In this document: positions 43,597-58,469 of the stretch, piece after piece
Layout: each line of letters opens with the position of its first letter
Position numbering within the stretch: position 1 is the stretch's first letter
NCBI RefSeq assembly: GCF_030651915.1
Contig: NZ_JAUSBV010000005.1
Span: forward strand, 806,001-870,000
Direction of reading: 5' to 3'
Length of the DNA stretch: 64,000 bases
DNA from: Parvibaculum sp.
GTDB taxonomy: Bacteria; Pseudomonadota; Alphaproteobacteria; Parvibaculales; Parvibaculaceae
Translations under genes and position numbers: made by a program
Notes under the pieces: model-generated
Databases searched by the model: none
The model's input: only the letters and a program-made list of their open reading frames with translations
What the model was told of the DNA's origin: nothing

Positions 43597-44577
43597 TCAT
43601 CCGGCAATGCGCTGGGCAAGCGCCGCATAAAGCGGGATACCGAGCGTCAGGTTGAAGGGAAAGGTGACGCCGAGCGAGAGCGTCAGATAGATGGCGGGAT
43701 TGGCCTCGGGCAGCGCCAGGCGCATGGCGGCCGGCACCGCGATATAGGAGGCCGACGCCGCCAGCGTGATCAGCAGCGCCGTGCCGCCGACCGAGAGGCC
43801 GAGCGTGAGTGCCAGCAGGCCCGTCAGCGCCGCCGAGAGCAGCGGGAAATAAATGCCGAAACCGATCAGCGCCGGCGAAAGGCTGCTGCCGCCCTGGCGC
43901 AGGCCGCGGCCGGCGACCAGTCCCATGTCGAGCAGGAAGAGACAGAGGATGCCGCGGAAGGGATCGACGATGAAGGGCGCAATCATGGCCATGCCCTCTG
44001 CCCCCGTGGCCCAGCCGATCAGGAAGGAGCCGACCAGCACCACGACCGAGCCGTTGGTGCCGACCTCGCGCAGCAGCGCCGAGGTGCTTTCGCCGCCGGC
44101 CTCTGCCGGGGCGCCGCGGCGGGCCAGCAGAAGTGCGGCAATGATGGCCGGCGTTTCCATGACCGCGGCGACCGCGATCAGATAGCCTTCATAGGCAAGG
44201 CCAAGGCTTTTCAGCGCCTCGGTGGCGGCAACGAATGTCACGATCGAGATCGAGCCGTAGTGACCGGCAACGGCGGCCGCATCGACGGTGGAGAGCCGCG
44301 TCGTCAGGCGCAGCAGCGCAAAGCCGATGACCGGGATCGAGAAGGACAGCAATATGCCGGCGCCGATGGTCAGCGCCATGCCCGCATCGACGCCGGATTT
44401 CGCCACTTCGGCGCCGCCCTTGAAACCGATGGCCAGCATCAGATAGAGCGCCAACAGCTTGGCTGCCGCTTCGGGCACCGAGAGATCGGAGCGGACCAGC
44501 GCTGCGGCAACGCCCAGCGCGAAGAACAGGACCATCGGCGAGACGATGTTCTGAAGGGCAAGATCGAGAATCGACAA
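43597..44577 (-). CDS. sbtA: SbtA-like sodium-dependent bicarbonate transporter
   Basis: A 326-residue inner-membrane protein with about ten helices in two inverted repeats, like SbtA. Family stretches include LYLMLAIGFKGGAEVAKSG near residue 44, AVAGHYGSISIVTFVAATEAL near 103, LCLFLLDMGLVAGRGL near 215 and GVTFPFNLTLGIPLYAAL at the end. The adjacent PII-like gene supports the call. The role may be uptake of bicarbonate for carboxylations (acetyl-CoA, propionyl-CoA) in lipid metabolism, since no Rubisco gene is in the window. Confidence 0.85.
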   Translation of the reverse strand: MSILDLALQNIVSPMVLFFALGVAAALVRSDLSVPEAAAKLLALYLMLAIGFKGGAEVAKSGVDAGMALTIGAGILLSFSIPVIGFALLRLTTRLSTVDAAAVAGHYGSISIVTFVAATEALKSLGLAYEGYLIAVAAVMETPAIIAALLLARRGAPAEAGGESTSALLREVGTNGSVVVLVGSFLIGWATGAEGMAMIAPFIVDPFRGILCLFLLDMGLVAGRGLRQGGSSLSPALIGFGIYFPLLSAALTGLLALTLGLSVGGTALLITLAASASYIAVPAAMRLALPEANPAIYLTLSLGVTFPFNLTLGIPLYAALAQRIAG

Positions 44578-44742: not shown

Positions 44743-45567
44743 ATGGACTACAGCCAGATCACGGTCGAAAAGCGCGGGGCGATATGCCTGATCACGCTCA
44801 ACCGGCCCGACAAGCTCAATGCCTGGACGCCGCGCATGGCGGAAGAACAGGCACATGCGATCATGGCGGCCAATGACGATCCGGATATCGGCGCCATCGT
44901 GATGACGGGTGCGGGCCGCGGCTTCTGCGCCGGGGCCGACATGGACGCGACCTTCAAGACGCGGCTCGACGGCAAGGACCCCGGCAACGACACGGCCGGC
45001 GGTTCGGGCGGGATGCCGGCCGGCGTCGACTGGATCGAACTGGTGCGCTCCTCGAAGCCGATGGTGGCGGCCGTCAACGGCCCGGCGGTCGGCATCGGCG
45101 TGACGATGATCCTGCCCTTCGACACCATCGTCGCGGCAGAGGAAGCCAAATTCGGCATGGTGTTCGTCAAGGTCGGGATCGTGCCCGAACTCGCCTCGTC
45201 GCATTTCCTGGTCGCGCGGATGGGCTGGGGTCATGCCAATGAGATGATGCTGACGGCGCGGCTTTATCCGGCGGCAGAGGCACGCGAGAAAGGCTTGTGC
45301 GAATATGTGGTGCCGCAGGCCGCACTTCTCGACAAGGCATTCGAGATTGCGAACCTCATGGCCGAGAACCCGTCGCGGCAATTGCGCATGACCAAGGAAC
45401 TGATCACGCAGAATGCCAGCGAGACCGATTTGAAGCTCGCCCAGAAGCGCGAGACCGATGCGCTCAAAATCTGCTGGACGACGCCGGAGCATCACGAAGC
45501 GGTCGACGCGTTTCTCAACAAGCGCAAGCCTGACTTCAAGAAGGCCGCGACGCGGGCCGCCGAATGA
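44743..45567 (+). CDS. Enoyl-CoA hydratase/isomerase, probably isomerase-type
   Basis: A 274-residue crotonase-fold protein. It has an oxyanion-hole pattern GRGFCAGADMDA near residue 64 and NGPAVGIGVTMILPFD. The two classic hydratase glutamates (GGCEL and PEI positions) are not conserved. A glutamate in GIVPELASSHFL sits where delta3,delta2-enoyl-CoA isomerases have their base. It would allow unsaturated acyl chains to enter beta-oxidation. It overlaps the hydrolase gene by four bases (ATGA), so the two are coupled. Confidence 0.85.
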   Translation: MDYSQITVEKRGAICLITLNRPDKLNAWTPRMAEEQAHAIMAANDDPDIGAIVMTGAGRGFCAGADMDATFKTRLDGKDPGNDTAGGSGGMPAGVDWIELVRSSKPMVAAVNGPAVGIGVTMILPFDTIVAAEEAKFGMVFVKVGIVPELASSHFLVARMGWGHANEMMLTARLYPAAEAREKGLCEYVVPQAALLDKAFEIANLMAENPSRQLRMTKELITQNASETDLKLAQKRETDALKICWTTPEHHEAVDAFLNKRKPDFKKAATRAAE

Positions 45568-46736
45568 GCGCGCCTTACGAAGTCGAACGCGTCCCCTTCT
45601 TCCTGCACTGGCAGGAAAAGGCCGCCTTCAAGGAAACCTATGCCGGGGCGCATGACACCGTCGTCGTCGAGGGCCAGCACCTGAAGCCGAAAGGCGTCGA
45701 TTCAAAAACCGTGCTGGTGTTCATGCATCCGACCGGAACGATGAACCTGTTGCCGATGCCGAATGCGCTGGCGGCGGCCGGCATTCCCTGTCTCACCTGC
45801 GGCAGCCGCTATCCGCATAACGACAGCGCGCTGATCATGGAGAAGGTGCTGCTCGATCTCGGGCATTACATTCGTTATGCCAAGGAGAAGCTCGGCTATG
45901 AAAAGGTGATCCTGGCCGGCTGGTCGGGCGGCGGGTCGCTGTCGATGTTCTATCAGTCGCAAGCGGAGAAACCCTGGATCACTGCGACGCCGGCGGGCGA
46001 TGCGGTCGACATCGTCGGGGCGAAGCTGATCCCGGCCGATGCGGTGCTGCAGCTTGCGGCGCATGTCAGCCGCGCCATCACGCTGACCGAATGGCTCGAC
46101 CCGTCGATCCGCAACGAGCAGGACCCGGACGACCGCGATGTCGAGCTCGATCTCTACAATCCGCAGAACCCCAACCAGCCGCCTTACACGGATGCCTTTG
46201 TCGCGCGCTTTCGCGCCGCGCAGATTGCGCGTTCGGAGCGGATCGATGGCTGGGTCAAGGACAAGCTGGCGGCGATGAAACGGGCGGGACGCGCCCATGA
46301 GGAATTCTGTTTCGTGGTGCATGGCACGATGGCCGATCCGCGCTGGATGGATCTGTCGATCGACGCCAATGATCGCAAGGGACCCAACTGGTGTTTCATG
46401 GGCGAACCGAAAATCGTCAACATGATGCCGGCGGGGCTGGCGCGTTATTGCTCGCTGCGGGCGTGGCTGTCGCAATGGTCGTACCGGGAAAGCCGCGCCG
46501 ACGGGCCGAAATGCGCCGGCGACATTTCGGTGCCGGTGCTGGTGGTCGAGAACAGCGCCGACGATGCCTGCACGCCTTCTCATGCGGCGCGCATTTTTGC
46601 CGGCGTCGCGCATGACGACAAGGAATTCCACATCGTCAAGGGCGCGACACATTACTATATAGGGCAGCCCGACAAGATGGCCGAAGCGGTGGCGCTGGTT
46701 GCCGGATGGTTGCGCAAGAAGAAACTGCTGGATTGA
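45564..46736 (+). CDS. Alpha/beta-hydrolase
   Basis: A 390-residue alpha/beta-hydrolase. The nucleophile elbow is in LAGWSGGGSLSMF near residue 118, the aspartate in VENSADDACTPSHA, and the histidine in VKGATHYYIGQ near the C-terminus. The long insert (residues 165-250, DPDDRDVELDLYNPQNPN) is unlike simple esterases. Coupled to the crotonase, so it may hydrolyse an acyl-CoA, ester or lactone of the same pathway. The next alpha/beta-hydrolase starts four bases after its stop. Confidence 0.82.
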   Translation: MSAPYEVERVPFFLHWQEKAAFKETYAGAHDTVVVEGQHLKPKGVDSKTVLVFMHPTGTMNLLPMPNALAAAGIPCLTCGSRYPHNDSALIMEKVLLDLGHYIRYAKEKLGYEKVILAGWSGGGSLSMFYQSQAEKPWITATPAGDAVDIVGAKLIPADAVLQLAAHVSRAITLTEWLDPSIRNEQDPDDRDVELDLYNPQNPNQPPYTDAFVARFRAAQIARSERIDGWVKDKLAAMKRAGRAHEEFCFVVHGTMADPRWMDLSIDANDRKGPNWCFMGEPKIVNMMPAGLARYCSLRAWLSQWSYRESRADGPKCAGDISVPVLVVENSADDACTPSHAARIFAGVAHDDKEFHIVKGATHYYIGQPDKMAEAVALVAGWLRKKKLLD

Positions 46737-46740
46737 GTTG

Positions 46741-47664
46741 ATGAATGTTGTTGCGAAGGCGGCGCCTGTGCGCCGCGAACTGGCGCGGGCGGGTGGCGCG
46801 ATCTCCTTTCTCGAATGGGATGACGGCACGGGCAAAGCGCCGCTGCATTTCGCCCATGCCAATGGGTTCAACGGGGCGACCTACAAGCAACTGCTCGGGC
46901 CGCTGGCCGACCAGTTTCACATCCGCGCCTGGGATGCGCGCGGGCACGGCCACACGACGCTCCCGGCCGACCCGGCCAAACATCGCAACTGGTATGTCTA
47001 TCGCGACGACCTGATTGCGATGGCCGAGGATTTCCACGCGGCGACGGGCCGGAAAGTCATTCTGATGGGGCATTCGATGGGCGGCGCCGCCAGCGTGATG
47101 GCGGCCTCGGAACGGCCCGATCTGGTGCGCGGACTGGTGCTGATCGACCCGGTGATGACGCCGCCGATGTTCCGCTACATGATGGCGCTGTGGCGGCTGA
47201 CGGGGCGCAAGGGCGGGCCGATGTCGCTGGCCGACGGGGCCGAACGGCGGCGCGCCGTGTTCGAGAGTCGCGACACGGCGGTCGAGCGCTATTTCGGCCG
47301 CGGCGCCTTTCGCACCTGGCCGCGTGCATTCCTGGCCGACTATATCGAGGGCGGCACGCGCATCCGCGAAGACGGACAGGCCGAACTGCTTTGCGCGCCC
47401 GAATGGGAAGCTGCGAACTTTCGTGCCCATGGCCACAACATGAATCGCGCGGTGGCGAAGCTCAGCGTGCCCTTCGCGCTTCTTTATGCCGCCGAGGGCT
47501 CGACCTGCCGGGCGCCCTTCCCGACGCTGATGCGCGCGCGCGACCGCAAGGCCCATGTCGCCGAGGTGCCGGGCTCGACGCATTTCCTGCCGATGGAATT
47601 TCCCGACCTCGTCATCGCCGAAGTGCGCGCCTTCGCGGCGCGGCTGGAGCGGGAGGGGCGCTAG
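46741..47664 (+). CDS. Alpha/beta-hydrolase
   Basis: A 307-residue canonical alpha/beta-hydrolase. HFAHANGFNG gives the oxyanion strand, the nucleophile is in LMGHSMGGAASVM near residue 109, the histidine in VPGSTHFLPMEFP near 285, and an acid lies in between. Length and motifs fit epoxide-hydrolase- or lipase-like members. It is the last gene of a three-gene plus-strand run and converges on hicB with a 3-base gap. Confidence 0.87.
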   Translation: MNVVAKAAPVRRELARAGGAISFLEWDDGTGKAPLHFAHANGFNGATYKQLLGPLADQFHIRAWDARGHGHTTLPADPAKHRNWYVYRDDLIAMAEDFHAATGRKVILMGHSMGGAASVMAASERPDLVRGLVLIDPVMTPPMFRYMMALWRLTGRKGGPMSLADGAERRRAVFESRDTAVERYFGRGAFRTWPRAFLADYIEGGTRIREDGQAELLCAPEWEAANFRAHGHNMNRAVAKLSVPFALLYAAEGSTCRAPFPTLMRARDRKAHVAEVPGSTHFLPMEFPDLVIAEVRAFAARLEREGR

Positions 47665-48355: not shown

Positions 48356-49531
48356 CTATTCAGGCCGATGACCCGGCCCATAGGCCTTCAACAGCCCCGC
48401 GCCGATGCGCTCGTTCATCATCTCCGTACTGCCGTCGGTATAGGCGGCCAGTTTGGCGCAGGCGAGGTGGCGGCCGAGGCCGTGTTCCTCGCGCAGGCCC
48501 GCCGCGCCCATCGTCTGGATGCAGTCGGCGATGCGCGGCAGCGTGACGCGGCCGGCGAATTTTTTCGCATGCGCCGCCGCCATCACGGCGTCGCCGCCCT
48601 TATCGATCAGGCGGCCGGCGGCCAGCGTCAACCCGCGCAGCGCTTCGAGATCGTTGGCGACGTCGCCGAGCGACCAGTTGAGACCCTGATGTTCGGTCAG
48701 CTTCTTGCCGAAGGCCTGGCGCCCCGCGCCATACGCAAGCGCCGTTTCGAGGCTTGCGGCGAGCATGCCGGCGCACATCGCCGCGACATAGACGCGGGCG
48801 CCGTTGACGCCCTTCATCGCAAGTTTGAACGCCTCACCGGGCGGGGCCAGCATGTCGTCCTCGGGGGCGAGGTAATCCTCGAGCGCGAAGCCGCCGGCGC
48901 CGATCGCATGGCCGCCCATCAGCGCATAGGATTCGGCGCGGCGGAAGCCCGGGCGGCGCGCATCGACCAGAAAGCAGGCGATGCCGCGCCAGCCGGCGGA
49001 AGGATCGGTCTGCACATAGGTGATGAAGAGATCGGCGATGGCGGCATTGGTGATCCAGCCCTTCTCGCCGTTGAGACGCCAGCCGGTGGCGGTCTTGACA
49101 GCGCTGGCGCGGATCGCCGAAAAGTCGCTGCCGGCGCCGGGCTCGCTCAGCGCCGTGGCGCCGAAGATTTCGCCTTTCATCAGCGCCGGCACATGCGCCT
49201 CGCGATGGCGCGCCGTCGGCGAGAGCGCCAGTCGCGCGGCGACGTTATGCGTGTTGACCAGCGAAAACGTGAAGGCCATGTCGGCGCGCGACATTTCCTC
49301 GCAAAGCGCCAGCTTGACCATGTAGCGGTGGCCGGGGCCGCCCGCTTGCTTCGGCACTTCGAGCGCGGCGAGGCCGAGCGCGGCGGCCGCGCGCAAGGCC
49401 TCGACGGGTTGGCGGCGGGTGCGTTCCCAGGCCGCCGCGTTGGGTGCGACCGTCTCGCGGGCGAAAGCGGCCGCCTGGTCGAGCAAGGTCGCCTCGTCCG
49501 CCGTCAACTCGTCGCGCAGAAATCCCGCCAT
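48356..49531 (-). CDS. Acyl-CoA dehydrogenase-like protein with atypical active site
   Basis: A 391-residue member of the acyl-CoA dehydrogenase family. FAD/substrate contacts are in ATALSEPGAGSDFSAIRA near residue 125, and the C-terminal signature reads AAYTDGSTEMMNERIG. Where medium-chain enzymes have the catalytic Glu (YEGT) this protein has Asp-Gly-Ser, and the alternative isovaleryl-type position reads VNGARVYVAA with no Glu. Aspartate-base dehydrogenases acting on cyclic acyl-CoAs are known, so the substrate may be unusual (inference). Last gene of the TetR-thioesterase unit. Confidence 0.85.
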   Translation of the reverse strand: MAGFLRDELTADEATLLDQAAAFARETVAPNAAAWERTRRQPVEALRAAAALGLAALEVPKQAGGPGHRYMVKLALCEEMSRADMAFTFSLVNTHNVAARLALSPTARHREAHVPALMKGEIFGATALSEPGAGSDFSAIRASAVKTATGWRLNGEKGWITNAAIADLFITYVQTDPSAGWRGIACFLVDARRPGFRRAESYALMGGHAIGAGGFALEDYLAPEDDMLAPPGEAFKLAMKGVNGARVYVAAMCAGMLAASLETALAYGAGRQAFGKKLTEHQGLNWSLGDVANDLEALRGLTLAAGRLIDKGGDAVMAAAHAKKFAGRVTLPRIADCIQTMGAAGLREEHGLGRHLACAKLAAYTDGSTEMMNERIGAGLLKAYGPGHRPE

Positions 49532-49547
49532 GGCTGCCCTCCCCCGA

Positions 49548-50468
49548 TCAGACGCCGAGACCGTCGATCACCAGCGATTCCAGATTGGTGCGCATTTCGT
49601 CGGGAATGGCAATCGCCTTGCGCGTCGTCAGGTCGAGCGCGACGGCGACCGCTTCGGCGGTGGCGATCGCCTCGCCGGTTTCGAGATCGAAGAGCCAGTG
49701 GCACCAGGTGTAGATTTTCGGACCGACATTCTTGAGACCGCTGCGGAGCGTCAGCACATCGCCCGCGCGCGGATGGCGGCGATAAACGAAGCGGTATTCA
49801 AGCGCGGCACCGCCCACCGTCGGCGTCCTCGAGCGGTCGGCGCCGCTTGTCTGCGCCAGCAGATTGGGAATGCCGTCGGAAACGATGCCCATGAAATGAC
49901 GGATCGTCAGGAAGCCGTGGCTGTCGCATTGCGACGCGTCGATCTCGCCCTGCCAGGTGCGGACCATGCCCATGGCATCGGCCTCGGCAAGCTTCGGCGA
50001 GGGACGCGGCGTGTAGATGTCGAGACCGCGCGGGCTGCCATGCACCGGCAGGTCGACGACGAGCGCTTTTGCCGCCGCCTTGGCCTTTGCCGGCAGCGGC
50101 TTCACCTCGCGACTCTCCCCATCCAGCAACTCGACCTCGGCGATGAAGGTGGCCGCCACCTCGCCCGAAACCGTGTTGACCATCTCCTCATAGACGCGCA
50201 GGCCGAAATCGCGCGGCTCGAGAATGCCGGCGCGGATGAAGAAGGGCGCGCCGGGGCGCTGCTCGCGCAGGAAACGGACATGATGATCGCGGACGAAGAA
50301 GCGCGCCCCGTCGGCACGGGCGAAGCGCGGACCAAGGCCCAGATGCAGCGCCAGCGCGGCAAGCCCCTGCCCCGCCTTGTCGACATAGAACTGCACGTTC
50401 ATGTGGCCCATCTGATCGCTCTCCCAGGTCTGGACGCTGGAGCGGGCCACTTCGATCATCTCACTCAT
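49548..50468 (-). CDS. Double-hotdog acyl-CoA thioesterase, paralogue 1
   Basis: A 306-residue protein of two fused YbgC-like hotdog domains. The N-terminal motif WESDQMGHMNVQFYV near residue 15 has the catalytic-type Asp. The C-terminal domain's equivalent is degenerate (QCDSHGFLTIRHFM), keeping Asp but replacing the His and Asn. A Pro-rich linker joins them. It belongs to a run of three similar genes upstream of the acyl-CoA dehydrogenase, which starts 16 bases after its stop. Likely cytoplasmic acyl-CoA hydrolase. Confidence 0.83.
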   Translation of the reverse strand: MSEMIEVARSSVQTWESDQMGHMNVQFYVDKAGQGLAALALHLGLGPRFARADGARFFVRDHHVRFLREQRPGAPFFIRAGILEPRDFGLRVYEEMVNTVSGEVAATFIAEVELLDGESREVKPLPAKAKAAAKALVVDLPVHGSPRGLDIYTPRPSPKLAEADAMGMVRTWQGEIDASQCDSHGFLTIRHFMGIVSDGIPNLLAQTSGADRSRTPTVGGAALEYRFVYRRHPRAGDVLTLRSGLKNVGPKIYTWCHWLFDLETGEAIATAEAVAVALDLTTRKAIAIPDEMRTNLESLVIDGLGV

Positions 50469-50522
50469 TCGGTTGTTCCACTTTTTCTGTTTCGATTTCG
50501 GGGTGTCGATGGGAAGGGGCGA

Positions 50523-51416
50523 TCAGACGCGCGCCCGCAGCGCTTCGGGCAGCGCCACGGCCTTGCGGCTCGCCCTGTCGAAAAGGAGACCGGCGCCTTC
50601 GGCGGCGCAAGCGGGCTCGCCAGTGTCGCCCGAGAAAAGCCAGTGGCGGTAACGGATCGTCTTGCCTTCGACGCCCAGAATGCCGGTGCGCACGACAATG
50701 GTTTCGCCGGCGCGCAATTCGCGGAAATAAGCGAGGCGCATTTCGACGGTTGCCGTGGCCAGACCGCGGGCGGCCTGTTCGTGGCGGCCAAGGCCGGCAT
50801 GCGCCCACATATGGCCCTGCGCATCGGAAAACCGCGCCATGAAGAAGCGCGCATTCATGTGATTGTTGGTGTCGCATTCCCAGGTGTTGACGACCGAGCG
50901 GTTGGTTTCGACCATGCCGTCGGCATCGGCACGGGCCAGCGAGACGTCGCGCGAGAGCGCTTCGGGCGGCAGCGCGCGCGGCAGCGCTTCGGGCGGCAGA
51001 GCGGTTTTCATCGCCTCGGCGCGGCGGCGCGTTTCGCCGGGCCAGGCCGTCAGGCGGCGCGTCGCCAGATCGAGGCAGCCGGTATCGACGACATAGGTCG
51101 CGGCCAGCCGGTCGTCGAGCACCTCGCGCATTTCCTGATAGATGCGCATCGTCTTGTCGCGCAATTCGACAATACCGGAGCGGATCGTCACCAGATCGCT
51201 GGTGCGCAATTCGCGGTGAAAGCGGATGTGATGTTCGAGCGCGACATAGCCAAGGCCCGATTGCGGCTGGTCGAGTGCGGCCAGCCCCAGCGCGACGCGC
51301 AGATTGTAGGAGCTGTCGGAACTCTTCGAGATGTAGTGCTGGATGTTCATGTGGCCCATCTCGTCGCATTCCTGCATCGAGACATAGCCGCGATAGGTGT
51401 CGATCATGCCGGTCAT
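50523..51416 (-). CDS. Double-hotdog acyl-CoA thioesterase, paralogue 2
   Basis: A 297-residue double-hotdog protein. The N-terminal motif MQECDEMGHMNIQHYI near residue 14 is intact. The C-terminal motif WECDTNNHMNARFFM has Gly replaced by Asn but keeps Asp, His and Asn. The linker holds an ALPPEAL-type repeat. The ATG overlaps the end of paralogue 3 (ATGA), so it is translationally coupled. The domain order is the same in all three paralogues, implying duplication of an already fused gene. Confidence 0.84.
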   Translation of the reverse strand: MTGMIDTYRGYVSMQECDEMGHMNIQHYISKSSDSSYNLRVALGLAALDQPQSGLGYVALEHHIRFHRELRTSDLVTIRSGIVELRDKTMRIYQEMREVLDDRLAATYVVDTGCLDLATRRLTAWPGETRRRAEAMKTALPPEALPRALPPEALSRDVSLARADADGMVETNRSVVNTWECDTNNHMNARFFMARFSDAQGHMWAHAGLGRHEQAARGLATATVEMRLAYFRELRAGETIVVRTGILGVEGKTIRYRHWLFSGDTGEPACAAEGAGLLFDRASRKAVALPEALRARV

Positions 51417-52330
51417 GCGAGCGCCCTGACCTGCGGCGCGAGACGTGCGCGCTCCTCGTCGGTGAAGGCGACGGTCTTTCGCGCATCGAGATCGAGCATC
51501 ACGGCGATCGCCTCGCCGGTCGCGACCGTTTCACCGGTCTCGGCATCGAACATGAAATGGGCGAAGGTCAGCGTCTTGCCGTCGAGGCGGGTCAGCGTAC
51601 TGCGGACGATCAGCATCGCGCCGGACCGGACCTCGCGCAGATAGTTCAGGCGCATTTCGAGCACCACCGTACCCCGGCGCTTTTCCTGCATGTGACGCTT
51701 GTCCATGCCGAGCGCCTGCCAGAGATGGCCGGCACCGTCCGAAAACCGCGCCATGTAGAAGCGTGAGTTCATGTGGCCGAAATCGTCGCACTCCCAGGGC
51801 ATGACGGCGCCGCGATAGATTTCGATGAAGCCGCGCGCTTCCGCCTCCGCAAGTGTCAACGGCGCAATACGCACTTCGCGCGCGACGCTGCGCGGTTCGG
51901 CATGCGGCGGCAGAGGCGCGAGGAAAGGCGCCGCCTTGTCATGCGCTTCGGCGGGCCAGGGGATCAGCCTGCGCTTCTCGAGATCGAAATGGCCACTGAC
52001 GGCGACGATGGTTGCCGCGGTCTCGCCCGAAGCCGAATTGAATAGCTCGTGATAGCTCACCAGCGTTCGCTCGCGCAGCTTCACCGGCCGCGAGCGCATA
52101 TGCATCAGGTCGCCCGCCCGGAGTTCGCGGTGAAAGCGGAAATGCTCTTCCAGCGCCACCATGGCCCGGCCCTCGGCGCGCACTTGCGACGGCGCGAGCC
52201 CCAGCGCATGGCGCAGCCAGAAAGCCGCGTCCGAGGCGCGGGCCACATAGAACTGCACGTTCATATGGCCCACCTCGTCGCACTCCCATGTGTTCACGGT
52301 GCCGCGAAACGTATCGAGAAATTCGGTCAT
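51413..52330 (-). CDS. Double-hotdog acyl-CoA thioesterase, paralogue 3
   Basis: A 305-residue double-hotdog protein with both motifs intact: WECDEVGHMNVQFYV near residue 14 and WECDDFGHMNSRFYM near residue 178. It is therefore the most canonical of the three. ATG 52330 (MTEFLDTFRG) is preferred over the frame's first Met at 52390, whose extra residues are Gly/Pro-rich. Lies 63 bases after the TetR gene on the same strand. Confidence 0.85.
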   Translation of the reverse strand: MTEFLDTFRGTVNTWECDEVGHMNVQFYVARASDAAFWLRHALGLAPSQVRAEGRAMVALEEHFRFHRELRAGDLMHMRSRPVKLRERTLVSYHELFNSASGETAATIVAVSGHFDLEKRRLIPWPAEAHDKAAPFLAPLPPHAEPRSVAREVRIAPLTLAEAEARGFIEIYRGAVMPWECDDFGHMNSRFYMARFSDGAGHLWQALGMDKRHMQEKRRGTVVLEMRLNYLREVRSGAMLIVRSTLTRLDGKTLTFAHFMFDAETGETVATGEAIAVMLDLDARKTVAFTDEERARLAPQVRALA

Positions 52331-52393
52331 GCCTGCTTGGAAGTTCAATGGCGGGTGGCGCAGCATAGGGGGGCCGCCGCCGCTTGTCATGGG

Positions 52394-53002
52394 TCAGCCC
52401 TTCGCGGGAAGTGCCGCCAGCCGGTGCGCCAACAGGTCTTCCGCAGGGAAACCCAGCGCCGCGAGGCGGCCCGTTCCTTCGAGCACCCTGAGCCCGATCA
52501 GGAAGGCGGCGAGGCAGAGGATTTCGCGGTGGGCAGCGGCGCCTTCAAGACCCGTTGCCGCGCGCAAGGGGCCGCCCAGCGTTTCGAGCACCGCGATGAC
52601 GCGGCCGGTGACGGCGCGGCTGAGATCGGGATCAAGCGCTTCGGCCGACATCAGCCGGCCGGCAAGGCGGACATGCGGGGTGTTACCGGCAGTAGCGGCC
52701 AGCGCCTCATACGCCGCGGCGGCCAGCGCGTCGGCGGGCGATGCCGCCTTCTCCGCTGCCTCGCGCATCCGTCTGGCGAGGTGCCCCAGCTCCTCGGCGG
52801 TCAGCGCGATCGCCAATTCGTCGATGCCGGCGAAATAGGAATAGACGGCGCCCGCCACATAGCCCGCTTCGGCGGCGACGGCGCGGATGGTCAGCGCCTC
52901 CGGCCCGCCTTCATCGCAGACGCGGCGCGCGGCGGCGAGGATCGCCTTGCGCTTGTGGTCGCGCAACGCCGTGCGGCGCTTTTCGGCGGCAGGCGCTGCC
53001 AT
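52394..53002 (-). CDS. TetR-family transcriptional regulator
   Basis: A 202-residue repressor. The N-terminal helix-turn-helix reads RKAILAAARRVCDEGGPEALTIRAVAAEAG and GAVYSYFAGIDELAIAL (about residues 18-65). The C-terminal ligand domain is Ala-rich and resembles the TetR_C domains of acyl- or aromatic-responsive regulators. Its start overlaps the upstream crotonase stop by one base (TGATG), so it is produced with the operon it is expected to control through the palindrome at 53925-53943. The ligand may be an acyl-CoA (inference). Confidence 0.88.
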   Translation of the reverse strand: MAAPAAEKRRTALRDHKRKAILAAARRVCDEGGPEALTIRAVAAEAGYVAGAVYSYFAGIDELAIALTAEELGHLARRMREAAEKAASPADALAAAAYEALAATAGNTPHVRLAGRLMSAEALDPDLSRAVTGRVIAVLETLGGPLRAATGLEGAAAHREILCLAAFLIGLRVLEGTGRLAALGFPAEDLLAHRLAALPAKG

Positions 53003-53880
53003 CAGAATTTGTACGTCGAACGGGAGGCGCCTTCGGCGATCGGGCCGCCGCCGTCGCGTTCCTTCACCGCCTGCTGGAAGCCGACCTGTTCGGCGCGCTC
53101 CTTGAACCAGACGCCTTCGGGCGAATGTCGGGTGATGCCATCGAACAGCGTCGCGAACATCTGCGTCGTCTGGAGGCCCATGTTTTCATAGGCCTGATTG
53201 ACCAGCAGCTTCTGCATCATCAGCTGATTGCGCGGCACGCCGGCCATGCGGTTCGCCAGTTCATCGACGCGGGCGTCGAGATCGGCGTCGGGCACGGCCT
53301 CAAGGACGAGGCCCATGGCGGCGGCCTCGGCGCCCGTCACCAGATCGCCGGTGAAGAGCATGCGCTTGGCGCGCTCCGGCCCGAGGCGATAGACCCACAT
53401 GGCGGTGGTCGGGCAACCCCAGACGCGGGCCGGCGGATAGCCGATCTTCGCATCCTCGGCCATCACCACCATGTCGCAGCAAAGCGCAATATCGGAACCG
53501 CCGGCGACCGCGAAGCCGCGCACTTTCGCAATCGTCGGCTTGTGGCAGCGCCAGAGCGACATGAAATCGCGCGTGTTGGCATGCATCATGTTGAAGTCGA
53601 CCATCGGGTCCCAGGGCCGGGTATCGCCCTTTGGCGTGCCCGCGCCCTGATTGCTTGTCGGCCTCTCGGCGAAGTCCTTCAGGTCGTAGCCGGCGCAGAA
53701 GGCGCGGCCGGCACCGGTCAGCACGATCACATGCACGTCGTCATCGTCATTCGCCTGTTCAACGGCGCGGGCCAGCTCGCGCGGCATGCCCGAGGCGATG
53801 GCGTTGAGGCGATCGGGACGATTGAGGGTGATGGTGGCGATGCGGCCCTGCCGCTCATAGAGGATGTGTTCGAAAGACAT
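53002..53880 (-). CDS. Crotonase-fold protein (enoyl-CoA hydratase/isomerase family)
   Basis: A 292-residue crotonase. The oxyanion region GRAFCAGYDLKDFAE near residue 60 and FAVAGGSDIALCCDMV near 126 are normal for the family, but the hydratase glutamates are replaced (GGSDI in place of GGxEL, YPPAR in place of QPEI). The activity may not be simple hydration. First gene of the TetR-regulated unit, about 33 bases after the -10 box of a good promoter. Confidence 0.86.
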   Translation of the reverse strand: MSFEHILYERQGRIATITLNRPDRLNAIASGMPRELARAVEQANDDDDVHVIVLTGAGRAFCAGYDLKDFAERPTSNQGAGTPKGDTRPWDPMVDFNMMHANTRDFMSLWRCHKPTIAKVRGFAVAGGSDIALCCDMVVMAEDAKIGYPPARVWGCPTTAMWVYRLGPERAKRMLFTGDLVTGAEAAAMGLVLEAVPDADLDARVDELANRMAGVPRNQLMMQKLLVNQAYENMGLQTTQMFATLFDGITRHSPEGVWFKERAEQVGFQQAVKERDGGGPIAEGASRSTYKF

Positions 53881-53912
53881 CGGATTCCTCCCGGTTCCGG
53901 TTAATTATTAAA

Positions 53913-53941
53913 CATATATCGTAAAATTGAACATTGTTCAA
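53913..53941 (-). promoter_or_regulatory. Promoter of the TetR-thioesterase operon
   Basis: On the minus strand TTGAAC (53936-53941) and TATATG (53913-53918) are exactly 17 bases apart, in an AT-rich patch 33 bases before the crotonase ATG. This is one of the clearest sigma70-like promoters in the window. Confidence 0.75.
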
Positions 53942-53943
53942 TT
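53925..53943. promoter_or_regulatory. Likely TetR operator palindrome
   Basis: AATTGAACATTGTTCAATT is a perfect inverted repeat of 9-base arms around one base. It covers the -35 box and the spacer of the operon promoter, a position where a TetR dimer would block RNA polymerase. The regulator encoded in the operon is the natural candidate ligand-responsive repressor. Confidence 0.75.
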
Positions 53944-54020: not shown

Positions 54021-54986
54021 TTAGGCCGTCGTGACGCGTTTCAGGAAGGCGTCGGCCTGCGCGTTGGCGGCGGCGGCGAGTGCGCCGGGGAAGGCGACGA
54101 AGCCATGAGCGCCGCCCGGATAAATGCCGAGTTCAGCCTCGTTGCCGGCCGCGATCCAGCGCGTATACATGAACAGCGAATCGTCAAGCAGCGCGTCGCG
54201 CGTGCCGACGGTGAAGAGCGCCGGACAGAGGCCTTTCAGATCGGCATAGAGCGGCGAGAGATCGGGGTCGCGCTTGTCCTTGACGCCTTTCAGGAAGGCT
54301 TCCGAAAATTTCTCAATGTCGAGCGTGCGCAGGATCAGGCGCTCGTTGCCGAAAGCGCGCTGGCTCGGCGTCATCGTCATGTCGAAGGCGCCGAAAACCA
54401 GATTGGCGCCCTTGAAGCCGGCATAGCCGTGGCGGTCGCGCATGCGCAAGATGGTGACGGCCGACAGATGCCCGCCGGCGCTTTCGCCGCCGATGGTCAG
54501 CCTGTCGGTGCCGAACTCCTTTTTTGCGTTGGCGACCAGCCAGACGGCCGCAGCCTCGCAATCGTCCGGGCCCGCTGGATAGGGATGTTCGGGCGCCAGG
54601 CGATATTCGACGCTGACGCAGGCGAGACCGACCCTGTCGGCGATACGTTCGAGCAGCGGGTCCTGCTGGTCGGCGGCGCCGAGCGTCCAGCCGCCGCCAT
54701 GGATGTGCAGATAGACGCCTTTCGGATTGTCGGGCGCGATGACGCGCAGCGCGATCTTGCCGCCCTTGCCGTCGATCTCGATCGTGCGGGCGCGGGGCGA
54801 TTTCGGCGCCAGCGGGAACGGACCTTCGCCGCGGGCGCGGGCGTCGCGCACTTCCTGCGCGCCGATGTCCCACCAGTCGGGGGCACCGTCCATCGCCTTG
54901 ATAATGGCGTCGTTGATGGCTTTCGTTTCGGCGGAAATCGCCTCGGCGGTGAAAAGCTTCGGGTCGAATGAATTGCTGCCTGACAT
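54021..54986 (-). CDS. HSL-family alpha/beta-hydrolase (lipase/esterase)
   Basis: A 321-residue hormone-sensitive-lipase-family esterase. The oxyanion motif [12 protein letters not shown] is near residue 93, the nucleophile elbow [13 protein letters not shown] near 165, the aspartate in [13 protein letters not shown] near 265, and the histidine in [11 protein letters not shown] near 295. Probably cytoplasmic; hydrolyses short- or medium-chain esters. It is divergent from the TetR-thioesterase operon and convergent with nothing nearby. Confidence 0.92.
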
Positions 54987-55045: not shown

Positions 55046-56068
55046 CTATCGGACGCGCCAGGCCCAGGCGGCATCACCGCTGTCCATGCGGGAGGTCACT
55101 TCGAGCTTCAGATGGCGGTTGTGGACCGCGAGCGCGCCTTCCCAAAGGGCGTTCCAGGCGTCGAAGCAGGCAGGCGTGACGCCTTCCCTGCCCTCCATCA
55201 TGCGCCATGTCGAAATCGATACCTCGGCGCCGTCCACATCTGCCTTGTCGCCGCCGGCATCGAGCATGGCGCCGAGATAGCGCGCGAAGGCGGCGGCGTC
55301 GTTTCGCGCGACGCCGATCAATGCGGAGGTCGCATCGTAGCATTGCATGCCGATCAGCCGGCCGGCTTCCCAACCGAGTTTCCGCGCCTCGTCCTCGCCG
55401 AAGAGCGAGACGGCGGCGGGCAGGATCGAGCGGATATATTGCACGGCGTAGTTGCGCTTCGCCTTGACCATGCGCTCTTCGGACCACTCGACATGGGGAA
55501 GTTTCGCAGGGTCGACATCCGGGCCGTTTTCCTCGAAGCGGAAGCGCAGGCGTTCATCCGCCGCCAGCGGGCGCTCCTCCTCGATGAAATAGCCTTCGAG
55601 GCAGGGGTCGATACGGGTGGTGATGTTGGTGCAGACGAAGCCGAGATTGGGATTGCCGAGCGTTACGCCGACCTGCGAATGGAAGGCACGCATGAAGGCG
55701 ATGCTGGTTTCATTCGGTACCGCGCAGATCGCCGCGCCGTCCCAGATCCATCGCGGCGGCAGGTAGCGCACCCAGGCCTTGCGGTCGCTTTCAGGAATGA
55801 ACTCGCATTTCACGCCGCCGACATGGTTTGCCAGATAGATATATTGCGCGCAGGCGACGGCGGGCGGCAGCTTGTCGAGGCCGAGATTTTTGTAGCCCGC
55901 CAGAAATTTCTCGCGGTGCTGCGCCTGAAAGGTACGGAAGTTGAGTTCGGTGCCCGCCGCCTCGCCCTTGAAGACGACGGCGCGCAGGATCAGCCCCGTC
56001 AGGTAACGCTGATGAAGCTCCGCGCTCGCACGCCAAGCGTTGAGTTCTCCTTCGCTGGCCGCTGCCAT
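55046..56068 (-). CDS. Protein of unknown function
   Basis: A 340-residue protein not recognised. It begins [24 protein letters not shown] and contains conserved-looking segments such as [58 protein letters not shown] and [30 protein letters not shown]. The later part vaguely resembles small catalytic domains with a Met/Cys/Tyr-rich helix; no function is assigned. There is no signal peptide. It is downstream of two DJ-1 genes on the same strand, so it may share a pathway with them. Confidence 0.7.
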
Positions 56069-56107
56069 CCCGTCCTCCCTCACTTGTTCGGGGGGAGGAT
56101 AGCGCAA

Positions 56108-56725
56108 TCAGACGGCGGCGCTATAGGGCGGCGCGGGGTCGTACTCCATCAAGCGCTGCGTCAGGCGCGCATGGTCTTGCCCGTGCATCTGGCCGGTGAG
56201 CCAGAGCGCCATGTCGATGCCGGCCGAGACGCCGGCCGCGGTCACGACATTGCCGTCGCGGACATAGCGGATGTTTTCGAGCACTTCCAACGCTTCGCCA
56301 CGCTGGCGGAGCTGCTCGATGAAACCCCAATGGGTGGTAACGCGCTTACCCCGCGCCGGACCGGCCGCACAGAGAAGCAGCGCGCCGGTGCAGACGCTTG
56401 TCACCCATTCGGCGGCGGCATGCTGTGCGATCCAGCCGAGCAGCTTTTCGTTCTCCGCCTCGCGGCGCGTGCCCTGCCCGCCTGGCACCAGCAGCAGATC
56501 GAGTTTCGGTGCATCGGTGATCGACACATGCGCCTCGACGCGCATGCCCTTGGCGCCGGTGACGGGACCGCCCGTCTCCGAAATCAGCAACACGGTGTCG
56601 GGATGCTCGCGACCCTCGAACCCATGGGCCTCGTTCGACATGGTGAAGACCTCATAGGGGCCGACGAAATCGAGTTCCTCGACGCCGTCGAAGATCAAGA
56701 TGCCGATGGTGCGGTTCTTGGACAT
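56108..56725 (-). CDS. DJ-1/PfpI-superfamily protein (isonitrile-hydratase-like)
   Basis: A 205-residue DJ-1/PfpI protein. The nucleophile elbow is VTSVCTGALLLCAAG near residue 110 with the reactive cysteine, followed by GKRVTTHWGFIEQL and VVTAAGVSAGIDMAL. The acid partner glutamate lies in IFDGVEELDFVGPYEVF near residue 15. Similar to isonitrile hydratase InhA and to GlxA N-domains. The substrate is unknown. It lies 12 bases downstream of the second DJ-1 gene. Confidence 0.87.
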   Translation of the reverse strand: MSKNRTIGILIFDGVEELDFVGPYEVFTMSNEAHGFEGREHPDTVLLISETGGPVTGAKGMRVEAHVSITDAPKLDLLLVPGGQGTRREAENEKLLGWIAQHAAAEWVTSVCTGALLLCAAGPARGKRVTTHWGFIEQLRQRGEALEVLENIRYVRDGNVVTAAGVSAGIDMALWLTGQMHGQDHARLTQRLMEYDPAPPYSAAV

Positions 56726-56737
56726 GGCGCGTTCTCC

Positions 56738-57418
56738 TCAGAGGGACGGCTGGGCGAAGCGCGGCGGTATCGAATTCATGCGCTCAAACAGGATCGATTC
56801 TTCGGCGACGCGGATTACCTCGCGGATCGGATCGGGCACCTCGTCGGGCGAGGCGTAGCTGAAGGGCGGATGGGGATAATACTCGATGCCGAGCTGGATG
56901 GTCTTCGCCGTGTCCTCGCCAGCGATGATGCGCGCGAGATAGAGCGCTCCGTCGATGCCGGCCGAGACGCCTGCCGTCGTCACGATCTTGCCATCGCGGC
57001 GATAGCGGTCGGGGACGACATGCGCACCGAAGGAGGCCACCGACTCGCGGGCGTAGTAGTTCGTCGTCACCGTCTTGCCCTTCAGGATGCCGGCGGCCGC
57101 GAGAATTTCCACGCCATTGCAAACACCGAAAGTCCAGCTGGAGGTTTCGTGAAGCCGGCGGACAAAGGCGAGCGTCGCCTCGTTGGTCATTTGCGGCCGT
57201 CCGCCCGGCCCGCCCGGCACATAGAGAATGTCGGTCGCCTCGACTTCCGAATAGTCACGCCATGCAGCCATGCCGCCGGAGCGGAGATCGTCGGCGATGA
57301 TGGTTTTCCGTTCGGCGACGAATTCAACCTCGGCGCCCGGCAGCCAGCCGAGAACGGCATAGCCGCCGACCACGTCGAGCATGGTGAAGCCGTCATAGAG
57401 AAGAATGGAGATGCGCAT
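56738..57418 (-). CDS. DJ-1/PfpI-superfamily protein
   Basis: A 226-residue DJ-1/PfpI protein. The nucleophile cysteine is in WTFGVCNGVEILAAAG near residue 99, with GKTVTTNYYARES and KIVTTAGVSAGIDGAL downstream, the same order as the neighbouring paralogue. The N-terminus ISILLYDGFTMLDVVGG lacks the strict Glu at the DJ-1 acid position (Asp or Met instead). Its start overlaps the end of the GlxA-type regulator by 26 bases, indicating coupling. Confidence 0.86.
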   Translation of the reverse strand: MRISILLYDGFTMLDVVGGYAVLGWLPGAEVEFVAERKTIIADDLRSGGMAAWRDYSEVEATDILYVPGGPGGRPQMTNEATLAFVRRLHETSSWTFGVCNGVEILAAAGILKGKTVTTNYYARESVASFGAHVVPDRYRRDGKIVTTAGVSAGIDGALYLARIIAGEDTAKTIQLGIEYYPHPPFSYASPDEVPDPIREVIRVAEESILFERMNSIPPRFAQPSL

Positions 57419-58469
57419 TGATCGAGGTTCCCTGATTTGAAGGCGCGGGGTCGCGCCGGGCGGTGCGGAAGCGTTCGCGGTAGCGGCCGGGTGTCACACC
57501 CAGATGACGAATGAAGGCGCGGCGCATGCGCTCGGCGGCGCCGAAACCGGCATCGGCCGAAACGGCGTCGAGCGACAAATCGCTGCCGGCAAGGTGGCGG
57601 CAGGCCTCGTCAAGACGCGCGCGCTCGACGAATTGCGCGGGCGTGATACCGGTCTCTTCGGCGAAGCGGCGGGCAAAACTGCGTTCGCTCATGGCGGCGC
57701 GGGCGGCAAGCGCCGGCACCGAGAGATCGGCACGCGGATTTTCGATGACAAAAGCGCAGACGCGCGACAGGCGCGTGTCGGCAACGCGCTGGGCGGCAAG
57801 TTGCGCCGAGAATTGCGACTGGCCGCCGGGACGCATCAGGTACATCACATGATGACGGGCGATCAGCAGCGCCGCGTCGCGGCCGAGATCCTCCTCGATC
57901 AGTGCCAGCGCGAGGTCCATGCCCGCGGTGACGCCGGCCGATGTCCAGAACTTGCCGTCGCGCACATAGATCGCATCTTCTTCCACGGTCACGGCGGGGA
58001 AGCGCTGGCGCATGGCCGGCGCATATGCCCAATGCGTCGTGGCGCGGCGGCCGTCGAGAAGGCCAGCGGCAGCGAGGATGATGGCGCCGGTGCAGATCGA
58101 AACGACACGGGCAACCGGCCCGGCGGCCTTGCGGACAAAGCCGAGGAGCCGCTCGTCCTCCATCGCCGCGCGCGATCCGAGCCCGCCCGTCACCATCAAG
58201 GTGTCGAGTGTCGCGAGATCGGCCAATGTCAGGTCGCTTATCGCCCGGTCGGCATGCAACACCAGGCCGCTCGTCGTCGAGACGGGGCCGGGTTCGACCG
58301 AGACCAGTTCGACCGCATAGGCCGGGCGGCCATCAGGCAGCAGCGCCGTACTCAAAATCTGCAAGGGGCCGGCAATGTCGAGAATCTGGGCGTCGGCGTA
58401 GGCGAGCATCATCACCCGGCGGGGGACCTGGGTGGGATTGCGGGGACTTGATTTGGTGGCGCTGGTCAT
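57393..58469 (-). CDS. GlxA-type AraC-family transcriptional regulator
   Basis: A 358-residue regulator. The N-terminal DJ-1/PfpI domain (residues 18-195) has the elbow VSICTGAIILAAAGLLDG near residue 124, and the C-terminal AraC/XylS domain (residues 230-340) includes two HTH motifs (LSVPALAARAAMSERSFARRF and LSLDAVSADAGFGAAERMRRAF). Members regulate genes for nitrogen compounds such as isonitriles or glycine betaine. As first gene it probably controls the two DJ-1 genes that follow in the same unit. Confidence 0.9.
   Translation of the reverse strand: MTSATKSSPRNPTQVPRRVMMLAYADAQILDIAGPLQILSTALLPDGRPAYAVELVSVEPGPVSTTSGLVLHADRAISDLTLADLATLDTLMVTGGLGSRAAMEDERLLGFVRKAAGPVARVVSICTGAIILAAAGLLDGRRATTHWAYAPAMRQRFPAVTVEEDAIYVRDGKFWTSAGVTAGMDLALALIEEDLGRDAALLIARHHVMYLMRPGGQSQFSAQLAAQRVADTRLSRVCAFVIENPRADLSVPALAARAAMSERSFARRFAEETGITPAQFVERARLDEACRHLAGSDLSLDAVSADAGFGAAERMRRAFIRHLGVTPGRYRERFRTARRDPAPSNQGTSINAHLHSSL

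Follow-up and report, generated by a model that had tools for sequence, protein, structure and literature searches.

PsrA, FadP, LiuQ, KstR, and BetI are TetR-family regulators that adjoin acyl-coenzyme A (acyl-CoA) genes and repress through a palindrome; the LiuQ, PsrA, and FadP regulons average 5–18 genes per genome (PMC5343134). A gene set of comparable design lies within a 64,000-nucleotide stretch of a Parvibaculum sp. genome (NCBI RefSeq assembly GCF_030651915.1, contig NZ_JAUSBV010000005.1, positions 806,001 to 870,000; this whole stretch is referred to as the window). Here, between 48,356 and 53,880 on the minus strand, a crotonase (ECH), a TetR-family regulator, three double-hotdog thioesterases (TE1, TE2, and TE3), and an acyl-CoA dehydrogenase (ACAD) are encoded head to tail behind a perfect palindrome. 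We give about an even chance to the reading that this is an autoregulated, metabolite-induced operon for acyl-CoA processing, or relief; unlike the LiuQ, PsrA, and FadP systems, its regulator would command a single target.

The enzymes also have described counterparts. FatA and FatB, the plant acyl-acyl carrier protein (acyl-ACP) thioesterases, carry their catalytic residues and motif in the second (C-terminal) half of the chain, and enoyl-CoA hydratase (EC 4.2.1.17) depends on catalytic Glu144 and Glu164 (rat numbering). In acyl-CoA dehydrogenases, two positions for the catalytic glutamate have been described (PMC11153573), and a catalytic aspartate has been reported in ACAD10, ACAD11, and LvaC (PMC12440821). 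Every part of the window operon belongs to a known family; the combination is new, and its role is not described in the searchable literature. The first-pass annotation had recognised no pathway with these genes, and neither such a pathway nor a paper on this gene combination was found in that literature, which omits most subscription journals.

The probable operator and its regulator

The palindrome, AATTGAACA-A-TGTTCAATT with the core TTGAAC-N3-GTTCAA, lies 45 nt upstream of the ECH start codon and bears out the earlier proposal of an operator-controlled operon; it is the strongest finding of the analysis. It is the sole match in the window at up to three mismatches (0.05 expected) and the sole site with up to two mismatches in the whole 3.5 Mb genome. 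When relatives were scored (out of 14 matches) over the 250 nt that precede the leading gene of the operon, all 16 TetR-bearing Parvibaculum genomes reached 12–14, and TetR-less relatives in the family reached 11 at best, the operator being present in 0 of 15; the TetR-less relatives scoring 11 are a pair (g5) whose site stands 30 nt before ECH. Kinship inflates this contrast, and independent cases therefore weigh more. In two loci that are without ECH (L055 and L063), the operator is retained and now stands directly before TetR. In families f41, f93, and f64, a site of the form (A/T)TGAAC-N3-GTTCA(A/T) precedes ECH by 34–88 nt in ECH–TetR pairs, while f8 has a 13/14 match 132 nt before ECH in its own pair and f121 carries imperfect copies before TetR. 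ECH loci without an adjacent TetR give best scores of 6–10. Exact searches placed the site at this promoter in 6 of 10 genomes, with 0–3 copies in total per genome; a literature search with the operator string returned nothing usable.

The position of the operator suggests how it may act. It overlaps a probable promoter, in which the left half-site doubles as a −35-like TTGAAC (53,941–53,936), followed by a 17-nt spacer and a −10-like TATATG (53,918–53,913). A third half-site, GTTTAA, lies at 53,913–53,908 and reads GTTCA in most relatives. An alignment of 15 genomes is free of insertions and deletions from the operator through GATATATGTTCA and varies in length beyond it, which suggests that TTGAAC and TATATG are the −35 and −10 elements, although their match to the consensus is weak. 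Repression through blockage of RNA polymerase is the natural reading of this layout. The regulator itself has a TetR_N DNA-binding domain (46.8 bits; cut-off 24) and is probably an autorepressor; its candidate pairing with the palindrome is well supported by the footprint and the co-occurrence. Identity with BetI, KstR, FabR, or FadR was rejected, since scores of 26–38 bits fall far under family cut-offs of at least 118, which sets this protein apart from the described regulators. A different strong palindrome, AAATATAACAGTGTTATATTT, precedes the ECH orthologue at one locus (L200, genome G370) where no TetR match adjoins it.

Organisation and conservation of the operon

All six open reading frames lie at the place and on the strand given by the first-pass annotation, and their families were confirmed by Pfam: ECH_1, TetR_N, two 4HBT_2 domains in each of the three thioesterases, and Acyl-CoA_dh. 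The same annotation had several genes overlapping by one to four bases, which is slightly generous: ECH and TetR overlap by 1 nt and TE1 and TE2 by 4 nt (ATGA), while the remaining junctions are short gaps of 3 nt (TetR–TE1), 54 nt (TE2–TE3), and 16 nt (TE3–ACAD). A terminator that would split the six genes was looked for, and no terminator-like site was found in any junction; the two minus-strand matches both lie within coding sequence, and the total count is below the shuffle mean. The genes are read as one operon because they share a strand, are separated by −4 to 54 nt, and are kept together in relatives.

Relatives were sought in 40 genomes of the family, 37 of which have thioesterase relatives, and the window genes were mapped onto about 60 loci. 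The complete set of six recurs, uninterrupted and in the same order, in no fewer than four further Parvibaculum genomes (L054, L057, L058, and L062), so the possibility that they are never co-located elsewhere falls away; three further loci (L056, L060, and L070) keep the same order up to contig ends. The four complete loci have some 1.1 kb extra, probably an inserted gene, between ECH and the upstream esterase gene LipEst, against about 140 nt in the window. The six belong to a larger conserved locus, AraC(DJ-1)-DJ1-DJ1-U353-LipEst-ECH-TetR-[TE1]-TE2-TE3-ACAD, convergent with ABH2-ABH1-ECHb.

Conservation of the six as a unit did not hold up. TE1 is missing in many genomes of the genus, and at L100 the operon has TE2 and TE3 as its only thioesterases. 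ACAD stands 300–980 nt from TE3 at five loci (L053, L064, L067, L069, and L072), and no clear ACAD orthologue was found at five others (L063, L065, L068, L095, and L097). In relatives without ECH and TetR, LipEst directly abuts TE1 or TE2 (−65 to +74 nt), which makes LipEst and the thioesterases a tight pair. Judged from gene order, linkage is tightest within operator-ECH-TetR-TE and within esterase-TE-TE, and the six genes are not a natural unit.

Three double-hotdog thioesterases

Each thioesterase matches PF13279 over two stretches, with scores of 142.4 (TE1), 152.4 (TE2), and 92.6 bits (TE3) against a cut-off of 25.5, and they scored under every equivalog cut-off in an NCBIfam scan. Both halves of each chain match the family of the YbgC–FadM type of thioesterase, and the D-x2-G-H-x-N motif is shared with it; the differences are that two domains are fused per chain and three paralogues stand in tandem. 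Across most of the genus, each half of TE1 and of TE2 has a motif of the CDxx(G/N/D)HMN type, the second half of TE2 reading NHMN in the window. TE3 keeps the motif in its first half, and its second half is without the histidine and asparagine in every complete orthologue; outside the core genus, the second half of TE1 has decayed too (L073 and L093–L095). The annotated start of TE1 is doubtful, since similarity to its paralogues begins near residue 19, and Met21 (at about 52,330) is a likely true start.

In a quick tree, with long branches outside the family, the three proteins fall into distinct clades older than the family, and TE2 and TE3 also occur in f121. The paralogues are, on this phylogeny, ancient and separately maintained, and their catalytic halves differ; the earlier suggestion that three fused paralogues split substrate classes agrees with the consistent differences in their active-site states, which fit a division of labour over substrates.

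The model of TE1 is a double hotdog (predicted local distance difference test (pLDDT) score of 91.8). By fold, Foldseek ranks bacterial and plant acyl-ACP thioesterases first and ACOT7 and ACOT12 next; by sequence, the closest solved chains are single-hotdog proteins of the YbgC/YbaW type. FatA, FatB, and the bacterial acyl-ACP thioesterases (4gak, 2own) share the double hotdog (template-modelling score of about 0.67–0.70 by query length), but TE1 is only 11–18% identical to them, the thioesterase genes have no fatty-acid synthesis context, and TE3 retains its motif in the opposite (N-terminal) half only. The Acyl-ACP_TE family of Pfam scores 27.0, 28.3, and 19.7 bits with TE1, TE2, and TE3 (cut-off 23.7), PF13279 being far stronger. 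ACOT7 and ACOT12 are likewise double-hotdog chains, but rank lower by fold, share 10–12% identity, and belong to another hotdog subfamily.

An atypical dehydrogenase and an atypical crotonase

The first-pass annotation called the dehydrogenase atypical, and with good reason: in 21 of 21 ACAD orthologues, a TDGSxE motif places Asp366 against the YEGTxE of solved acyl-CoA dehydrogenases, and the alternative position of IVD and LCAD holds no glutamate. This predicted catalytic aspartate in place of glutamate is shared with ACAD10, ACAD11, and LvaC, which give it precedent, but the nearest solved relatives of the window enzyme are classical glutamate enzymes. It has acyl-CoA dehydrogenase domains only, and no kinase turned up in the scanned genes of the locus. 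In a genome-wide residue survey that used only rows with a BLAST match, at least two further acyl-CoA dehydrogenases of the window genome carry the aspartate (L122 and L127), so that the residue is uncommon there rather than unique; L127 (LADGPDEVH) is presumably a true ACAD11-type enzyme.

ECH belongs to the PRK08272 subfamily (452.8 bits in NCBIfam; cut-off 257). All close orthologues read GGSDIAL and IGYPPARVWG, with aspartate for Glu144 and no equivalent of Glu164. Since both hydratase glutamates are missing, the name enoyl-CoA hydratase is probably a misnomer.

Related arrangements in other families

Beyond the Parvibaculum family, the order ECH-TetR-TE occurs in f93 (G240, G331, and G408) and f41 (G205 and G079); in a further f41 genome (G301), the gap between ECH and the thioesterase is of the right size. 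Families f64 and f8 have ECH-TetR without an adjoining thioesterase, f123 has ECH-TE3, and f121 has LipEst-TetR-TE2-TE3; linkage of ECH to a thioesterase is seen in f1, f41, f93, and f123. The hotdog domains are packaged differently from family to family: in f93, a single chain of about 463 residues holds three 4HBT_2 stretches behind ECH-TetR (L190:9157–10545; G240), and f41 has a 144-residue single chain and a 305-residue double chain. In f41, the full set is carboxyltransferase-ACAD-biotin carboxylase-ACAD-operator-ECH-TetR-TE-TE, opposite which stand FadJ-like and thiolase genes. This recalls the Liu and Atu operons for leucine and acyclic terpenes, but the likeness is confined to the f41 relatives, since no biotin-dependent carboxylase was found among the genes scanned at 43.6–58.5 kb of the window. 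In Phaeobacter, ECH lies beside an AMP-ligase, a TRAP transporter, and an aldehyde dehydrogenase.

A proposed function and its rivals

In the proposed relief operon, TetR, the product of the second gene, would bind TTGAAC-N3-GTTCAA across the spacer and −35 element, thereby shutting off the operon that encodes it and hardly any other gene. Its release would be brought about by a small molecule, for which an acyl-CoA or the corresponding free acid is the likeliest candidate; the acyl-CoA sensing raised by the first-pass annotation would take this form. ECH and ACAD may then alter the acyl chain, after which the thioesterases would hydrolyse the products to free acid and CoA, draining acyl-CoAs that ordinary β-oxidation handles poorly and returning CoA to the cell. 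The acyl groups probably come from esters or lactones cut by LipEst and the α/β hydrolases, as the conserved neighbourhood suggests. The regulatory side of this scheme is well supported; we infer the thioesterase substrate and the direction of flux. The neighbouring hydrolases, the f41 gene set, and the context of ECH in Phaeobacter speak for a catabolic setting. Parvibaculum degrades surfactants and alkanes (PMC3368416), and unusual acyl-CoAs are therefore to be expected in this genus. Several points weigh against the proposal: the operon contains neither an acyl-CoA ligase nor a clear substrate marker, which leaves the direction of flux unproven; the detachment or absence of ACAD and the dispensability of TE1 mean that the six genes are not one obligate pathway; ECH lacks the two hydratase glutamates and is probably not a hydratase; the f41 neighbours could be bystanders; and an exact search of the f121 genome G159 for the operator gave 0 sites.

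The main rival, which we hold to be unlikely, is a dedicated pathway that degrades a single unusual ester or lactone in the forward direction, in which the esterase and α/β hydrolases would open the substrate, the acid would be activated elsewhere, ECH, ECHb, and ACAD would carry out a modified β-oxidation, and each thioesterase would free a specific end product instead of serving as a relief valve. The wider locus, with its three hydrolases and two crotonases, is conserved as such a route would lead one to expect, the f41 and Phaeobacter contexts are catabolic, and ABH1 is the best conserved neighbour, from a family whose plasmid-borne members accompany monooxygenases, VOC proteins, and genes of aromatic pathways. 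However, no ligase, monooxygenase, or dioxygenase was found among the genes scanned nearby, the hydrolase and thioesterase sets lie on opposite strands, and a thioesterase frees CoA, which is normally avoided in a forward pathway. The fold ranking described above might instead point to biosynthetic thioesterases of the FatA/FatB kind, freeing a fatty acid from acyl-ACP or acyl-CoA for a signal or lipid product. This is very unlikely, given the weak sequence match to acyl-ACP thioesterases (4gak, E 7e-5), the motif of TE3 in the first half where FatA and FatB are generally known to have theirs in the second, the lack of a synthase, ACP, or ketosynthase among the scanned genes, and the CoA chemistry indicated by ACAD and the crotonase. 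Alternatively, the genes may be mere neighbours, an autoregulated ECH-TetR cassette having recombined in front of an independent esterase–thioesterase operon: LipEst-TE1-TE2-TE3 stay adjacent where ECH-TetR is absent, and f64 and f8 have the cassette without an adjoining thioesterase. Yet the ECH-TetR-TE order also occurs in f41 and f93, TetR remains with the thioesterases after the loss of ECH, and the close junctions hold no terminators, all of which renders this third alternative improbable.

A broader reading is tentatively raised, though we think it rather doubtful: operator, crotonase, TetR, and multi-hotdog thioesterase may form a distinct and widely shared module for acyl-CoA quality control, a stand-alone sensor and valve that detects and releases stalled acyl-CoA. 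Its thioesterase part would be up to three double chains in Parvibaculaceae, one triple chain in f93, or a single and a double chain in f41, and in Parvibaculum it would be paired with an aspartate-base ACAD from outside the ACAD10/11 group. If the relief operon is the right reading, the locus would offer a compact, testable sensor of acyl-CoA whose palindrome is defined and whose target is a single promoter. It would also supply a natural range of thioesterases with two or three hotdogs, one half decaying as the other remains active, and an acyl-CoA dehydrogenase with an aspartate base beyond ACAD10 and ACAD11. The f41 variant beside carboxylase genes is a lead to the substrate.

Neighbouring genes

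Table 1. Features of the operon and its surroundings (window positions; gene ends include the stop codon).
Feature	Position	Strand	Basis
ACAD, acyl-CoA dehydrogenase, Asp366 (TDGST) for catalytic Glu (YEGT)	48356..49531	-	Pfam, alignments
TE3, double-hotdog thioesterase, first half active-type, second degenerate	49548..50468	-	Pfam, motif, tree
TE2, double-hotdog thioesterase, motif in both halves	50523..51416	-	Pfam, motif, tree
TE1, double-hotdog thioesterase, D-x2-G-H-x-N in both halves	51413..52390	-	Pfam, motif, tree, model
TetR-family regulator	52394..53002	-	PF00440; operator co-occurrence; conserved helix-turn-helix
ECH, crotonase fold, PRK08272 subfamily	53002..53880	-	Pfam, NCBIfam, alignments
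Probable promoter overlapped by operator	53908..53941	-	indel-free alignment in 15 genomes; consensus match weak
Candidate TetR operator, perfect palindrome	53925..53943	no strand	genome-wide uniqueness; conservation upstream of TetR-bearing operons
LipEst, HSL-type carboxylesterase	54021..54986	-	Pfam; ~140 nt upstream of ECH
U353, conserved 353-aa protein, 71–99% among relatives	55046..56107	-	part of wider locus
Two DJ-1/PfpI proteins and DJ-1-AraC (FtrA/GbdR-like) regulator	56108..58469	-	conserved upstream part of locus
ECHb, second crotonase, isomerase-like (GIGVT / GIVPE), conserved convergent neighbour	44743..45567	+	NCBIfam, motifs, loci map
ABH1, alpha/beta hydrolase, best conserved neighbour (77–96%)	45564..46736	+	Pfam, loci map
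ABH2, alpha/beta hydrolase, conserved convergent neighbour	46699..47664	+	Pfam, loci map

Plasmid-borne relatives of ABH1 have dissimilar surroundings (monooxygenase/VOC, sugar ABC genes, and homogentisate dioxygenase) that point to no substrate, and a sequence search of the PDB with ABH1 gave no match. U353 has no match in Pfam or NCBIfam, and its AlphaFold model is unusable (pLDDT 50). A role in betaine or carnitine metabolism, raised by matches to PRK07531 and GbdR, was rejected on scores far under the cut-offs. The three DJ-1/PfpI-domain genes upstream are consecutive, the last being fused to an AraC-type DNA-binding domain. On the other side, a gene of the Na+/bicarbonate transporter superfamily (Sbt_1; 43,597–44,577) adjoins ECHb in several Parvibaculum loci. 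Between ACAD and ABH2 lies a HicA/HicB toxin–antitoxin pair (PF07927 and PF15919; 47,668–48,276), with HicB at the same place in only one of the mapped loci (L071); hicA is preceded by two copies of GTTGTGTATATATA(A/G)GCA, perhaps its promoter or operator.

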